From Desulfobacterales bacterium (GTDB lineage Bacteria; Desulfobacterota; Desulfobacteria; Desulfobacterales; JAAELO01): 64,000 bases of DNA. The stretch covers positions 1-64,000 of the forward strand of contig JAAELO010000154.1 in the NCBI GenBank assembly GCA_024226555.1, given 5' to 3'. The notes below the pieces were generated by a model, which saw nothing but the letters and a program-made list of their open reading frames with translations, was not told the origin of the DNA and made no database searches. Both the position numbers and the translations under genes were made by a program. Below, in pieces: positions 54,676 to 62,467 of the stretch (position 1 is the stretch's first letter; each line of letters opens with the position of its first letter).

Positions 54676-56748
54676 ATGGATTGGATTAAAAAATTTTTTA
54701 GTGGGCTACTGGCAGAATCAGCTGATGTTGTAATGGTTCTTACAGTTATTGGGATTTTGTTAGCTATGGTTCTTCCCATACACCCGGTATTACTGGATCT
54801 ACTCCTAGCAATGAACATAACATTAGCTATAATAATCCTAATTACAACTATATACACTGAAACACCTCTTGATTTCTCAATTTTTCCATCTATGCTTTTA
54901 GTTCTTACTCTGTTTCGATTGTCACTGAATGTAGCTTCCACACGTCTTATTCTTCTGAATGGTAATCAGACAGGTGGTGTAGGATCAGTTATTACGTCGT
55001 TTGGTAATTTTGTGGTTGGCGGTAACTATGTTGTTGGTATGATCATTTTTGTTATTCTTGTTTTGATAAACTTCATGGTTATAACAAAAGGTTCTGGTCG
55101 TATTGCTGAAGTTGCTGCAAGATTTGCACTTGATTCCATGCCGGGTAAGCAGATGGCTGTTGATGCAGACCTGAATGCTGGTATTATCGATGAAGATGAA
55201 GCAAAGGACAGACGTAAGGAGATTGCAAGGGAATCAGAATTCCATGGAGCTATGGATGGTGCCAGTAAGTTTGTAAAAGGGGATGCCATAGCAGGTATCA
55301 TAATCACAGCGATAAATATCTGTGGTGGTTTTGTTATTGGTGTTTTTCAGAACGATATGGCTGTTATGGAAGCAGCCTCAACATATACATTATTAACAGT
55401 TGGAGATGGACTGGTTAGTCAGATCCCTGCTCTAATTATTTCCACAGCAGCCGGTCTTCTTGTTTCTAGAGCCGGTTCTGAAGAGAAGATGGGTTTTGAG
55501 TTCAAAAAACTCATTGTGGGCAAGCCGATGCCAATTTACATTGGATCTGCCGTGATATTTTTTATGGGTGTTGTTCCAGGGCTTCCCGGACCTCCCTTTA
55601 TTCTATTAGCACTTGCATTATCAGGATCTCTTTTCTGGTTTCAAAGAAAAGAGAAGAAAGCTGATGATGATGAGGTTATTGCTGATCTTGATGATGAAGA
55701 ATCAGGTCCTGAAAATGTTGAGAACTTTCTTGCTCTTGATACTATGGAGCTTGAAGTCGGATATGGTTTGATACCTCTTGTTGATAAGTCCCAGGATGGA
55801 TCACTCCTTGGAAGAATACGTTCAATAAGAAGACAATTTGCCAGTGATTTTGGTATTGTTATTCCACCTATACATATTAGGGATAATTTAAAACTTAAGC
55901 CCCCTGAATACAGATTTATTGTTAAAGGTGTGGAAATTACAAGGGGTGAGTTAATGATAAATCACTTTCTTGCAATGGATCCTGGGGATGTAGTCCAGGA
56001 GATAGAAGGAATTCCAACAACAGAACCTGCATTTAACCTTCCTGCAATATGGATTGCGGAAGAGAAAGAGGAAGATGCTAAATTTGCCGGATATACAGTA
56101 GTTGATAACTCCACTGTTTTAGCCACACATATAACTGAACTTATTAAAGAAAACTCTCCTTCACTGCTTGGAAGACAGGAAGTTCAACACCTTCTTGACA
56201 ATCTTTCAAAAACGAATCCGAAAGCTGTTGAGGAACTTGTTCCAAATCTTCTATCACTTGGGCAGGTTCAAAAAGTGCTTCAAAATCTTCTCAGTGAGAG
56301 GGTTTCAGTACGTGATTTGCTCACAGTAATCGAAACTCTTGCTGATTATGCACCAATGAGTAAAGATCCTGATCTTCTTACTGAATATGTAAGGCAACAG
56401 TTAGGTCGTTCAATTGTAGGACAATATATTCAGGCTGATAACTCTTTATCGGTCATTGCAATAGGTCAGAAAGAGGAGGAAATTATAGCCAAATCTCTTC
56501 AGCAAACTGACCAGGGTTCTTTTCTGTCACTTGATCCAACAACAGCAGAAGCTCTTATCCGTTCTGTGAAAGATGAAGTTGGAAAATGTATGAATCTGAA
56601 TATACAGCCGATTATTTTATGCTCACCAGGGATCAGAAGACATTTCAGACACTTAATAGAGCAGCATGTTCCTGCTGTAGCTGTAATTTCACATGCTGAA
56701 ATTATTCAGAATGTTAATATTAAATCAACGGGAAAGGTTTCCCTGTAA
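54676..56748 (+). CDS. flhA: Flagellar export gate protein FlhA
   Basis: A 690-residue protein of full length. About eight membrane helices lie in residues 15-330, including the FHIPEP-type region (here LLVLTLFRLSLNVASTRLIL) and SRSGSGRIAEVAARFALD-like GKQMAVDADLNAGIIDEDEA. The C-terminal cytoplasmic half (from about 350) is the FlhA ring that selects substrates. It is the ring-forming gate of the flagellar type III secretion system. GGGGA precedes the ATG. It leads the flhA-flhF-flhG-fliA operon; flhF begins without a gap. Confidence 0.96.
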   Translation: MDWIKKFFSGLLAESADVVMVLTVIGILLAMVLPIHPVLLDLLLAMNITLAIIILITTIYTETPLDFSIFPSMLLVLTLFRLSLNVASTRLILLNGNQTGGVGSVITSFGNFVVGGNYVVGMIIFVILVLINFMVITKGSGRIAEVAARFALDSMPGKQMAVDADLNAGIIDEDEAKDRRKEIARESEFHGAMDGASKFVKGDAIAGIIITAINICGGFVIGVFQNDMAVMEAASTYTLLTVGDGLVSQIPALIISTAAGLLVSRAGSEEKMGFEFKKLIVGKPMPIYIGSAVIFFMGVVPGLPGPPFILLALALSGSLFWFQRKEKKADDDEVIADLDDEESGPENVENFLALDTMELEVGYGLIPLVDKSQDGSLLGRIRSIRRQFASDFGIVIPPIHIRDNLKLKPPEYRFIVKGVEITRGELMINHFLAMDPGDVVQEIEGIPTTEPAFNLPAIWIAEEKEEDAKFAGYTVVDNSTVLATHITELIKENSPSLLGRQEVQHLLDNLSKTNPKAVEELVPNLLSLGQVQKVLQNLLSERVSVRDLLTVIETLADYAPMSKDPDLLTEYVRQQLGRSIVGQYIQADNSLSVIAIGQKEEEIIAKSLQQTDQGSFLSLDPTTAEALIRSVKDEVGKCMNLNIQPIILCSPGIRRHFRHLIEQHVPAVAVISHAEIIQNVNIKSTGKVSL

Positions 56749-57984: not shown

Positions 57985-58887
57985 GTGGATCAGGCTAGCA
58001 GCTTAAGAAAAATTGTTCGCAAGGAAAGTCAGGATCTTAAAAAGAAAAATAACAAAGGTAAAAAATCATCTGAAGATCCCAGAGTTATTTCTGTAACCAG
58101 TGGAAAAGGTGGTGTTGGTAAGACCAATATGGTTGGAAATCTTGCCATAGCATTTACGAAATTAAATAAAAATGTTCTCATTATTGATGCTGATTTGGGG
58201 CTTGCAAATATAGATATTATATTTGGTATAAAACCGAAATATAACATCGGGCATGTTCTTAACGGTGAGCAGAAACTTGAGGATGTTATCGTTGAAATAG
58301 AAAATGGGATAAAAATTATACCCGCTGGCTCGGGTTTTGCAAATCTAACTGAATTAAGTGAAATTCAGAAAATGAATCTCCTAACTGAGTTTGAATCTCT
58401 TGATGCTGAACTTGATGTTGTTCTGATCGATACAGGAGCTGGAATTTCATCAAATGTACTGTATTTTAATCTTGCTGCGGATGAATGTCTGGTTGTTGCA
58501 ACTGGTGAACCGACCTCGATGACAGATGCGTACGCAACAATAAAGGTTATGTATACACAACATGGTGTTAAATATTTTAAGCTTTTGGTTAATATGGTAA
58601 AGGACGAAGAGGAGGCAAAATATGTCTATTCTACTCTTAGTCAGGCTATGGATCAGTTTTTGAGCGGTGTTCTACTTGAATATATTGGTTTTGTACCTTC
58701 TGATGAGAAACTTGCTAAAGCGGTTGTAAGTCGAAAACCTGTTATGGAACTGCATCCGGATGCAGCATCCAGTAAAAAAGTTATGGAAATTGCAGAATCT
58801 CTTCTTAAATCACCAAAAAGAAGAGAATCTGATGGAAATATTAAGTTTTTTCTGAATCGTTTTATTGATTACAGGGTAACAGAATAA
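57985..58887 (+). CDS. flhG: Flagellar number regulator FlhG (MinD-like ATPase)
   Basis: A 300-residue ParA/MinD-family ATPase. It starts with GTG after GGAGATA. A short N-terminal tail ASSLRKIVRKE resembles the DQAxxLR motif by which FlhG stimulates FlhF. The deviant Walker A is VTSGKGGVGKTNMVGNLA, followed by IIDADLGLANIDIIFG and IDTGAGISSNV. It limits the number of flagella by acting on FlhF. fliA begins 26 bases further on. Confidence 0.94.
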   Translation: MDQASSLRKIVRKESQDLKKKNNKGKKSSEDPRVISVTSGKGGVGKTNMVGNLAIAFTKLNKNVLIIDADLGLANIDIIFGIKPKYNIGHVLNGEQKLEDVIVEIENGIKIIPAGSGFANLTELSEIQKMNLLTEFESLDAELDVVLIDTGAGISSNVLYFNLAADECLVVATGEPTSMTDAYATIKVMYTQHGVKYFKLLVNMVKDEEEAKYVYSTLSQAMDQFLSGVLLEYIGFVPSDEKLAKAVVSRKPVMELHPDAASSKKVMEIAESLLKSPKRRESDGNIKFFLNRFIDYRVTE

Positions 58888-58913: not shown

Positions 58914-59675
58914 ATGCTCCAAGAATATGTTAACGAAGGTAAATCTGCAAAAAAGCGTGGTTTTGATCCTGTTAAACGAGAAGAGATGATCGTTAAATAT
59001 GCTTATTTGGTTAAGTTTATTGCAGGAAGAATGATTTCAAGGCTCCCTTCCAGCGTTTCCTTTGATGAGCTTATTAGTGCTGGTTCCATGGGGCTTATTG
59101 ATGCCGTTGATAAATTTGATGCGGAAAAAGGAGTAACCCTTAAAACCTATGCTCAGTTTAGAATCAAAGGATCTATTTTAGATGAATTAAGAAGTATGGA
59201 CTGGTATTCAAGGTCTATGAGGAAGTGGATCACAGATATTGAAAAGGCAATGGTCAGGGTTGAAAATGAGAAAGGTTCCCCGGCTACTGAAGAGGAAGTC
59301 GCAGAAGAATTAGATCTGACTCTTGAAAAATACCATGATATTTTATCCAAAATTCATAGAACAGCCTTATTAAGACTCGATTCGTTTATTGGTTCAGATA
59401 GTGATAAAGGAGCAACTTTTAAAGATCAGCTTAAAAGTACAGATAGTCCGGAAGATGTTGTTGATAGAAAAGAGCTTAAAAAAGTTCTTGCTGAAGCGAT
59501 CAGAAAAATATCAGAAAAAGAACAGATTGTTATATCTCTATACTATTATGAAGAATTAACCCTAAGAGAGATTGGGGAAGTTTTGAGTTTGACAGAGTCA
59601 AGAATTTGCCAGATTCATACTACAGCGTTAATAAAACTTAAAGCTAAACTTAAAAGTTATATAGAGCACCTCTAA
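58914..59675 (+). CDS. fliA: Flagellar sigma factor FliA (sigma-28)
   Basis: A 253-residue sigma factor of the FliA/WhiG family. Region 2 (about 25-100) has LPSSVSFDELISAGSMGLID and TYAQFRIKGSILDELRSMDW, followed by Y-S-R-S-M-R. Region 3 lies in the middle. Region 4 ends in LTLREIGEVLSLTESRICQI, which contains the helix-turn-helix. It directs transcription of late flagellar and motility genes. The stop codon (TAA at 59673-59675) lies within a small palindrome made of element ends (59669-59690). Confidence 0.94.
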   Translation: MLQEYVNEGKSAKKRGFDPVKREEMIVKYAYLVKFIAGRMISRLPSSVSFDELISAGSMGLIDAVDKFDAEKGVTLKTYAQFRIKGSILDELRSMDWYSRSMRKWITDIEKAMVRVENEKGSPATEEEVAEELDLTLEKYHDILSKIHRTALLRLDSFIGSDSDKGATFKDQLKSTDSPEDVVDRKELKKVLAEAIRKISEKEQIVISLYYYEELTLREIGEVLSLTESRICQIHTTALIKLKAKLKSYIEHL

Positions 59676-59763: not shown

Positions 59764-61338
59764 ATGGCAGACAATAAATATGAATCGAGTTTGTTATCCC
59801 AGGATCATATTGATAATCTACTTGAAGATGCTATGAAAGAAGACACTGCAGAAGATACGGATTCTGCTCTTCAGGATAATAGTGATTCAGGGCTGATAAC
59901 TGAAGATGAAATAAATATGCTGCTTGATGGGTCATCAGATGATGATGTTGATGTTCTGCCTGTGGAAAATGTTGCTGATCTGGATCAAAGTGATGATTCA
60001 GGCTTAGTATCACAGGGTGATATAGATGGTCTTTTAAATGGAAATGCCAGTGAAGAAGAGGACTCCGGGCTCATATCCCAGGGAGATCTTGATGGACTTT
60101 TAGATGGCAATGCAGATGAGGGGGAAAGCTCTGATCTTGTATCCCAGGATGATATTGAAAACCTTCTGAGTGGAGGAGAGGAAACAGAACTTGTCTCTCA
60201 GGATGATATTGAGAATCTTCTTGAAGAAGGAGATGCTGATAATTCATCCGATGATCAGGCTGGATTAGATGCTCTTATTAATGCAGGTGATAATGAGGAT
60301 GCTGTAGAGAGTGAGTTAATATCACAAAGCGACATTGATAACCTTCTTGAAGGTGGAATGGGTGATGATGATATGGACAGACCAGAAAGTGAAGAAGTTC
60401 CAGCAGAAGAAGCTGCCTTGCCACCACAGGATGAAATAGGAGAGCTTCTCGATAGCTCAGATGATGAAGATGAAAATAGCCTGATATCCCAGGGAGATAT
60501 TGATAAACTACTTTCTGGTGATATAGATGATGATGATGGAGATGAAGAATCAGACCTTATTTCCCAGGATGACATCAGCAGTCTTCTTAGTACTGAAGAG
60601 GATGAACCTGCTGAGACTGAAGAATCTTTAATATCACAGGATGATATAAATAAATTAATGAATCTGGATGATGACTTTGAAGAACCAGATGACCTATCGC
60701 CCGAACCAGAGGCTGACACTTCAGATCCTGTTGATGATGAATCTATAGAAGAATTACTTCAGGGTGATGACGAATCCGATCCTGTAATATTAGATAGTCC
60801 AGATGAGAAAAAGAGTTGGAAATCAAAAGTTGTTGCCCTTGTTGTTATTCTACTTGTAATTTCAGTGGGAACATTCTCATATTATAAATTTTTCGGGGAA
60901 CCAAAGCCGGTTGTTACTGATATTCCAGAACAGATTGAGGAAGTTGAGAAAGAAGATGTTGTCGAAAAACCAGTTGAAGAGGAAAAAATTCCTGTTGAAA
61001 AACCATTTGAAGAAGAGAAAGAAGATCCTCTTGTTGATGATGAAATAGTTTTTGCCAAGATGGCTAATTTCATAGTGCTTACGCCAAAAGAGGTTAAGGA
61101 TATAACTTATATTTCAGGGGATCTCTCTATTGAGATGATGTCTTCGTCTTTAAAGAAAATTAAAGAAAATAAACCGAAATACCGAGATATTATATACAGA
61201 GCTATAAAAGCATCAATAGCTGAAAAAGGTAATGTTAAGATTGTAAAGGAAGATCTTGCTGAAGAGTTAAAAAACAGACTGATTGAAGAAGACCTTACAG
61301 TTGAGAATGTTGTCTTTACTGATTTTGAAAAAGGTTAG
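59764..61338 (+). CDS. FliL-like membrane protein with multiple FliM-N-like peptides
   Basis: A 524-residue protein. The acidic N-terminal part (1-350) has tandem peptides of the form L(I/V)SQxDI(D/E)xLL at 10-20, 44-54, 81-91, 103-113, 125-135, 143-153, 185-195, 219-229, 240-250, 265-275 and 289-299, plus degenerate copies at 165-173 and 323-332. They closely resemble the N-terminal peptide of FliM (LSQAEIDALL), which binds phosphorylated CheY. A membrane helix (355-377) and a charged linker follow. Residues 425-524 look FliL-like: NFIVLT, then NKPKYRDIIYRAIKASIAEK, LKNRL and ENVVFTDF. FliL has the same N-in topology and supports the stators. That it captures CheY, FliN-type or FliM-binding partners near the motor is inference. 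RBS AGAGAG precedes the ATG. Confidence 0.65.
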   Translation: MADNKYESSLLSQDHIDNLLEDAMKEDTAEDTDSALQDNSDSGLITEDEINMLLDGSSDDDVDVLPVENVADLDQSDDSGLVSQGDIDGLLNGNASEEEDSGLISQGDLDGLLDGNADEGESSDLVSQDDIENLLSGGEETELVSQDDIENLLEEGDADNSSDDQAGLDALINAGDNEDAVESELISQSDIDNLLEGGMGDDDMDRPESEEVPAEEAALPPQDEIGELLDSSDDEDENSLISQGDIDKLLSGDIDDDDGDEESDLISQDDISSLLSTEEDEPAETEESLISQDDINKLMNLDDDFEEPDDLSPEPEADTSDPVDDESIEELLQGDDESDPVILDSPDEKKSWKSKVVALVVILLVISVGTFSYYKFFGEPKPVVTDIPEQIEEVEKEDVVEKPVEEEKIPVEKPFEEEKEDPLVDDEIVFAKMANFIVLTPKEVKDITYISGDLSIEMMSSSLKKIKENKPKYRDIIYRAIKASIAEKGNVKIVKEDLAEELKNRLIEEDLTVENVVFTDFEKG

Positions 61339-61554: not shown

Positions 61555-61569
61555 TGAGAGGTGAAAATC

Positions 61570-61887
61570 ATGACAACTATTCCAAACTTAAATGTCGTGA
61601 TACAGCAGGGTGGGAATGCAAGAGATGCTCAAAATGTTAGGAATCAACCACAACATACTAATTCATATGTTGAAAATCAAATGCCTGATAAAATTCAGGA
61701 ACAAAGAACCAGTGTAAATGAATTGGAAGAAGCTGAGCACTCAAAACTGAACAAGGATAAAGAAGGTAAAAGAAGCTATTTGAGGAAGAAGCGGGAAGCT
61801 GCAAAGAAAAGGAAAAAGAAAAGTAAAAAAGCAGCGCGTTTTGAACACCCAAATGGAAGTGGTAGGCTTTTAGACACAATTGTTTAG
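61570..61887 (+). CDS. Small basic protein of the flagellar locus, unknown function
   Basis: A 105-residue protein from ATG at 61570, chosen over GTG at 61561 because GAGAGGTG lies eight bases before the ATG. The first half is polar and rich in Gln and Asn. The second half is very basic (residues about 72-92, with RKKREAAKKRKKKSKKAARF) and ends GSGRLLDTIV. Short proteins ending in a GxxLDxxV-type tail occur next to DUF6115 genes in deltaproteobacterial flagellar loci. I know no function. The next gene's ATG is 11 bases after its stop. Confidence 0.6.
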   Translation: MTTIPNLNVVIQQGGNARDAQNVRNQPQHTNSYVENQMPDKIQEQRTSVNELEEAEHSKLNKDKEGKRSYLRKKREAAKKRKKKSKKAARFEHPNGSGRLLDTIV

Positions 61888-61897
61888 GGAATTTTTA

Positions 61898-62467
61898 ATG
61901 GAAATTTTTGCAATAGAATTTTATATTGTACTTCAACTTCTGATAAACCTGGCTTTAGTTTTTCTTATTGTGTATTTTCTTAGAAAAATGAGAGCTGCTA
62001 TGCAAAAAGACGCTTCCAGAGATGCGGCCAGACAGGTCGCGACTATGATGGATCCATTGCTTAAGGAAGCTGATAAAGTAGCACATCTTTTTGAGAGTCA
62101 GATAAATGAAAAAAAACAGATTATAGATTCAATTAATGATAAACTTGACTCAAGAATTCTTGATTTGAAGTTTATGCTTGAAAAAGCAGAAAAAACTATG
62201 AAAAAAGCAGCTGAGAATCTGGCTGGTTCAAATATTCAGGTAAAAAAAGAGTTAATAAAAGATAGTAATAAAGTCGAAGTTGAAGATATAGAAGATCTTC
62301 CAGAAAGAAAAGCCAAACCTTTGTCCACCCAACAGGATATGATTTTTGAGCTCCATAATAGAGGTTATGATGCAGAAGATATTGCAAAAGAACTCTCTTT
62401 ATTGAAGCGAGAAGTCAATCTTGCCCTTTCTCTAAAGAAAAAACTGATGTTTATGGAGAAGAGTTAG
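61898..62467 (+). CDS. DUF6115 coiled-coil membrane protein
   Basis: A 189-residue protein from ATG at 61898, with AGGGA seven bases upstream. An N-terminal membrane helix (about 8-27) is followed by a long helical coiled coil (about 35-115) and a small C-terminal helix-turn-helix-like motif, NRGYDAEDIAKELSLLKREV, with LALSLKKK after it. This matches DUF6115, which is found in flagellar loci of Desulfobacterota and relatives. The C-terminal motif resembles DNA-binding or protein-binding helices, but the membrane anchor makes a DNA role less likely. Confidence 0.72.
   Translation: MEIFAIEFYIVLQLLINLALVFLIVYFLRKMRAAMQKDASRDAARQVATMMDPLLKEADKVAHLFESQINEKKQIIDSINDKLDSRILDLKFMLEKAEKTMKKAAENLAGSNIQVKKELIKDSNKVEVEDIEDLPERKAKPLSTQQDMIFELHNRGYDAEDIAKELSLLKREVNLALSLKKKLMFMEKS

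Follow-up and report, generated by a model that had tools for sequence, protein, structure and literature searches.

A 64,000-nucleotide stretch of Desulfobacterales DNA (the window) encodes, at positions 59764–61338 of the forward strand, a 524-residue FliL paralogue with an N-terminal tail that carries an array of peptides resembling the N-terminus of FliM (FliM-N). The protein belongs to a family of sulfate reducers that spans the order with a strongly conserved gene order, and is not the single strange protein of the preliminary description of this DNA. The reading to which we lean, with confidence slightly better than even, is that this second FliL acts through its tail as a multivalent dock for phosphorylated CheY (CheY-P) at the stator ring and would provide a local reservoir or buffer. 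A membrane-bound FliL that carries FliM-N-type peptides in variable number appears to be an undescribed combination of known families; neither the architecture nor the motif strings found a match in the open-licence papers that were searched.

Architecture of the array protein

The gene was delimited by its open reading frame and its orthologues. It starts with ATG, 88 nt after the end of fliA, in the position directly after that gene initially proposed. Residues 1–345 form an N-terminal tail with a net charge of −119 and an Asp + Glu content of 36%. When scored by BLOSUM62 for similarity to LSQxEIDxLL, the published consensus for CheY binding (PMC5677366), this tail contains 10 copies with a score of at least 22 of 36, most of them with Asp replacing Glu at position 10. 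Shuffled sequences of the same composition (n = 5000) contain 0.09 copies on average and 2 at most, and the likeness to FliM-N claimed earlier therefore stands. With a strict position matrix built from 22 FliM-N peptides most repeats had scored low, since so small a sample shows no variation at E10 and hardly any at V11; the BLOSUM62 scoring against the consensus took its place.

All copies lie on the forward strand. The clear copies are LLSQDHIDNLL (59791–59823, residues 10–20, score 31), LITEDEINMLL (59893–59925, residues 44–54, score 23), LVSQGDIDGLL (60004–60036, residues 81–91, score 30), LISQGDLDGLL (60070–60102, residues 103–113, score 29), two copies of LVSQDDIENLL (60136–60168, residues 125–135, and 60190–60222, residues 143–153, score 26 each), LISQSDIDNLL (60316–60348, residues 185–195, score 31), LISQGDIDKLL (60481–60513, residues 240–250, score 31), LISQDDISSLL (60556–60588, residues 265–275, score 25) and LISQDDINKLM (60628–60660, residues 289–299, score 24). 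Their cores begin at residues 11, 45, 82, 104, 126, 144, 186, 241, 266 and 290, and the one at residue 45 (ITEDEINMLL) is weak yet counted among the clear ones. Three degenerate copies have cores at residues 163 (DDQAGLDALI; 60247–60279, residues 162–172, score 13), 220 (copy LPPQDEIGELL; 60418–60450, residues 219–229, score 17) and 323 (VDDESIEELL; 60727–60759, residues 322–332, score 15). The total of 13 copies agrees with the preliminary description, but its division into 11 clear and 2 degenerate copies becomes 10 and 3.

Residues 356–374 (60829–60885, forward strand; hydropathy 2.36) form the single hydropathy peak of the protein and are also helical in the structural model. Because the flank on the N side of this membrane helix is basic, the tail is predicted to be cytoplasmic and the C-terminal domain to lie outside, which is the topology with one membrane helix proposed at the outset. 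The acidic tail of ~350 residues is probably disordered. The Pfam scan of the 524-residue protein revealed neither a FliM core nor a FliMN_C domain, and among Pfam matches up to E = 1 there was no CheC-like, LysM or FimV-type C-terminal domain. A weak PADLOC match to Drt3a (17 bits) was regarded as a chance hit.

A DNA pattern encoding the motif was run over the whole 7.7-Mb genome and gave 5 in-frame matches within this gene and 8 matches elsewhere. One of the latter is in frame (NQNDIETLF, contig C432); it belongs to an unrelated protein and seems to be a chance occurrence. The presence of the peptide array at 59764–61338 is confirmed.

The C-terminal FliL domain

Residues 433–521 (61060–61326, forward strand) correspond to Pfam family PF03748 and have an SPFH-like fold. 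The scan of the full protein yields 22.4 bits, under the curated cut-off of 24.6, whereas the C-terminal region alone (26.2 bits) and the genome search (27.1 bits) exceed it. Alignment of a profile of 17 orthologues with the canonical FliL profile by hhalign results in a probability of 97.3% and an E value of 1.7e-11. An AlphaFold2 model computed from 13 sequences has pLDDT values above 90 across most of the C-terminal domain. The top Foldseek match of the modeled domain is H. pylori FliL (E = 3e-4), and VIA-align gives Z scores of 12.1 for H. pylori FliL, 11.2 and 11.0 for Vibrio FliL, and 8.9 for the next fold. By profile and predicted fold the domain belongs to FliL, in keeping with its first assignment.

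The array protein has in common with FliL, a stator-associated protein, the profile and fold of the C-terminal domain, one membrane helix, the N-in topology and a place in the flagellar cluster. However, the cytoplasmic N-terminus of FliL comprises 2–28 residues (PMC10127578) compared with ~350 residues with a peptide array here, and the FliL name is therefore applied to the C-terminal domain alone. The usual fliL gene is next to fliM, whereas the array gene sits after fliA and exists alongside a canonical fliL. The sole FliM gene of the genome, on contig C883, encodes an ordinary N-terminal peptide (MSDILSQEEVDSLL) and is preceded by an ordinary fliL, separate from the array gene. Because the ordinary FliL adjoins fliM elsewhere in the genome, the array protein is an extra FliL and not the usual one. 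A third FliL-domain protein of the same genome (G000, contig C680:14946–15269; locus L002:1432–2295, reverse strand) begins like a lipoprotein (CSSFYSCKS), and the surrounding 3 kb showed no flagellar genes; whether this is a FliL domain outside the flagellum is a question that it raises.

The array shares with the FliM-N peptide (LSQxEIDxLL; EIDAL motif), which FliM normally carries once to bind CheY, the hydrophobic and acidic contact positions. It differs in its many copies, in being part of a membrane protein, in the Asp at position 10, in an Ile for the Val of FliM from the same genomes and in the absence of a FliM core. FliY of Bacillus is a C-ring protein that contains a CheC-like domain and is not known to have a membrane helix or a peptide array, and HubP/FimV proteins are membrane-anchored with an acidic cytoplasmic repeat region. 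The array protein differs from HubP/FimV in having no LysM/FimV-type domain among its Pfam matches, in the sequence of its repeats and in the FliL domain on the outside. FliY is a second carrier of the EIDAL motif (PMC12826062) and resembles the array protein as a second motor protein with it; HubP is a polar landmark that recruits FlhF (PMC12826062).

Gene order and distribution

Upstream of the array gene are flhG (57985–58887), coding for a MinD-like ATPase and candidate rival partner of the peptides, and fliA (58914–59675), coding for the flagellar sigma factor and invariant as the upstream neighbor, both identified by Pfam and synteny. Downstream are two conserved genes, one for a protein of ~110 residues (61561–61887; synteny) and one for a DUF6115-like protein with an N-terminal membrane helix (61880–62467; Pfam and synteny). 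All four are on the forward strand. The order in ~50 fully read loci is, with few gaps, fliL-fliM-fliN-...-flhA-flhF-flhG-fliA-[array gene]-110-residue protein-DUF6115-like-fliK-like. The array gene adjoins the flhG region and not chemotaxis genes, which counts against the CheY reading. The 110-residue protein carries the segment M(T)TIPNLNxxIQQGG close to its N-terminus, and its gene and the DUF6115-like gene are syntenic across the order. At window position 54676, flhA-flhF-flhG-fliA follows a polysaccharide gene region, and fliL-fliM-fliN are on another contig (C883); the flagellar cluster looks split in this genome because the two groups are ~3–4 kb apart in relatives.

Orthologues in ~60 further genomes contain 1–18 peptides and always directly follow flhF-flhG-fliA; these carriers usually have a canonical fliL beside fliM as well. 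A search with the single protein found a match in 18 of 96 genomes, that of the window counted; a profile search extended this to many more. FliA was used as an unbiased bait to sample loci of named genomes, and the array occurs at all 11 loci with a FliA identity of at least 57%. These include Desulfospira joergensenii DSM 10085, Desulfobotulus alkaliphilus ASO4-4, a Desulfosudis oleivorans MAG, and MAGs of Desulfobacula, Desulfotignum and Desulfamplus. None of the remaining 69 bait loci has an array; one is from a Desulfobacteria MAG with a zero-peptide relative and the others are more distant. The named carriers are all Desulfobacterales, as are the named loci closest to that of the window. 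Among the matches listed for the DNA pattern in 395 genomes of the phylum, no carrier-like count lies outside the order, which is weak evidence of absence because the pattern misses DLD variants (genome G001 scores 0 and has 11 copies).

Seven relatives at the same locus, with flhG, have no peptides, which suggests that the array grew upon a pre-existing FliL paralogue. Near-identical copies within one protein (TLSQDDIEALLS, ELSQDDIDGLMG; loci L089 and L090 of genomes G026 and G104, and L105 of G235) suggest recent growth of the array by duplication of the unit. In a carrier assembled as a single contig (L278, G126 C1:4298800–4304500), a frame change splits the peptide region from the FliL domain; the gene may be decaying or the assembly may be in error, and the zero-peptide count of this genome was excluded because the reading frame is split. 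Other in-frame motif matches in carrier genomes are isolated and fall in unrelated proteins (IS66 transposase, histidine kinase and others). Two IS66-like transposase copies (L202 and L209, G116) start with LTQEEIDALL, near the FliM-N core, and single motif matches are therefore uninformative. A degenerate form of the motif, LTEEELNAL, begins a FliN within an acidic N-terminal extension (L041:2363–2821).

Conservation of the peptides and of CheY

The contacts between E. coli FliM-N and CheY include FliM residues L6, Q8, I11, D12, L14, L15 and 16 (PMC3774744, PDB accession 1F4V). In 337 copies from 38 orthologues, position 6 is Ile, Leu or Val in 96%, position 8 is Gln in 93%, position 11 is Ile or Leu in 97%, position 12 is Asp in 83% and Glu in 9%, position 14 is Leu in 92% and position 15 is Leu or Met in 87%. 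The non-contact position 13 is free to vary, and position 9 is loosely acidic. As read from the aligned copies, the positions that stay constant are the ones in contact with CheY in the FliM–CheY structure. Silent sites between copies are saturated (pS 0.69) and the protein is kept (pN 0.24, a value biased low because the copies were selected by similarity).

The FliM N-terminus of the same genomes is near-invariant, (I/V)L(S/T)Q(D/E/N)EVD(S/N)LL, and the repeats differ from it systematically (QDDID versus Q[DE]EVDSLL) by E10 to Asp and V11 to Ile; the partner or the affinity may therefore differ. Residue 10 is missing from the contact table of PMC3774744, and Ile at position 11 is the residue of E. 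coli FliM.

The preliminary description had named a genome without CheY as evidence against its reading; both CheY and CheA are present. The CheY of the genome (G000, contig C358:37844–38209) is 61% identical to E. coli CheY and keeps D57, T87, A90, K92, Y106, V108, K109, K119 and K122; by these residues the FliM-binding face of the motor-type CheY is intact. The genome has 7 CheA genes and many CheY-like proteins, at least 5 of them standalone.

Peptide number and CheA number

CheA genes were counted in the carrier genomes, which are partly draft, to separate a CheY partner from an FlhG partner. Peptide number correlates with CheA number over 62 genomes (rho = 0.51, p = 2e-5). Phylogenetic contrasts on a FliA + FlhG tree result in r = 0.35 (p = 0.006), and in r = 0.31 (p = 0.017) when genome size is controlled for; in contrasts minus the four CheA-less genomes the relation is not significant (p = 0.14). 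These four genomes, in which no CheA was detected, have 2, 2, 4 and 5 peptides versus a median of 8.5 (p = 0.002). CheW is absent in both of the two that were checked, and the FliM peptide is retained where read. The 2–5 peptides kept without CheA suggest another partner or genes missing from draft assemblies. The trend favors a link with chemotaxis, and CheY over FlhG, the correlation being modest.

Discussion

FliL is located at the stator elsewhere (PMC6426602, PMC10127578, PMC12222027), and homology to it suggests a stator location for the array protein; that these genomes usually have the canonical FliL too counts against it. The FliL/SPFH domain and the membrane helix would place the protein at the motor and most probably at its stator, where its ~10 amphipathic FliM-N-type peptides (1–18 across species) would bind phosphorylated CheY. 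The array would then be a dense docking reservoir surrounding the C-ring and would retain CheY-P beside the switch, raise its concentration there or buffer it, and it could couple chemotactic signaling to stator behavior. A CheY-P dock is favored because the contact positions are the conserved ones, the FliM-binding face of CheY is intact and the peptide number tracks CheA. A more specific version is possible but distinctly more tentative, namely that the stator FliL paralogue is a tunable multivalent CheY-P reservoir with a peptide number that evolved to the number of chemosensory systems, and that it buffers or time-filters the signal or couples it to torque.

The preliminary description did not weigh FlhG as the partner of the peptides. 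The peptides would in that case mimic the FliM N-terminus, and the protein would be a HubP-like membrane landmark or sink for flagellar number and C-ring assembly. FlhG is a serious rival because it binds the N-terminus of FliM in monotrichous or polar flagellates, according to a review (PMC12826062), and is encoded two genes upstream, a spacing that is always kept. Moreover, the acidic repeat tail on a membrane anchor is reminiscent of the polar landmark HubP, and some peptides are retained in CheA-less genomes. Nonetheless, we consider this reading unlikely, as peptide number follows CheA number, the seven peptide-less relatives have flhG at the same locus, and Pfam detects no LysM/FimV-type domain. 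Docking of a CheY-like or other response regulator in place of the motor CheY, which would couple another signal to the stator, seems more improbable. Caulobacter offers a precedent in its c-di-GMP-responsive Cle proteins, which bind FliM-N (PMC5677366), the genome holds numerous CheY-like candidates, and the repeat consensus is constantly unlike FliM-N (E10D, V11I). However, these changes affect a non-contact residue and a conservative Val/Ile pair with the E. coli residue, and ordinary CheY binding would therefore be expected.

Two further readings dispense with a role in signaling at the motor. If the protein were spread across the membrane as a remote sink that lowers free CheY-P, its sites would presumably far outnumber the expected FliM, and the acidic, probably disordered tail would suit it; the stator location of FliL domains in other bacteria and the gene order that ties the array gene to flagellar genes make it very improbable. 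Slightly less credible still is a structural acidic tail, the amphipathic helices of which associate with one another or make contact with the stator or rotor and resemble FliM-N by chance. The core is also that of a generic capped helix, and IS66 transposases and other unrelated proteins show single matches by chance, but Q8, I11, D12 and L14 are strictly retained in the 337 copies, and the tail has 10 copies against 0.09 expected.

The C. jejuni motor was modeled with 68 FliL (17 × 4). If the array protein reached this number, ~10 peptides each would by extrapolation amount to several hundred CheY sites, which would surround a C-ring holding a few dozen FliM. Models of chemotaxis put the CheY-P sites of the motor on FliM. 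If the CheY-P dock is true, the many extra sites by the switch would change occupancy, noise and the setting of the response time across a bacterial order, and FliL, the role of which is disputed, would gain a signaling function. The 0–18 peptides at one locus are a natural variation through which the effect of site number can be tested directly. If FlhG is instead the partner, the array would represent a new route for the control of flagellar number.
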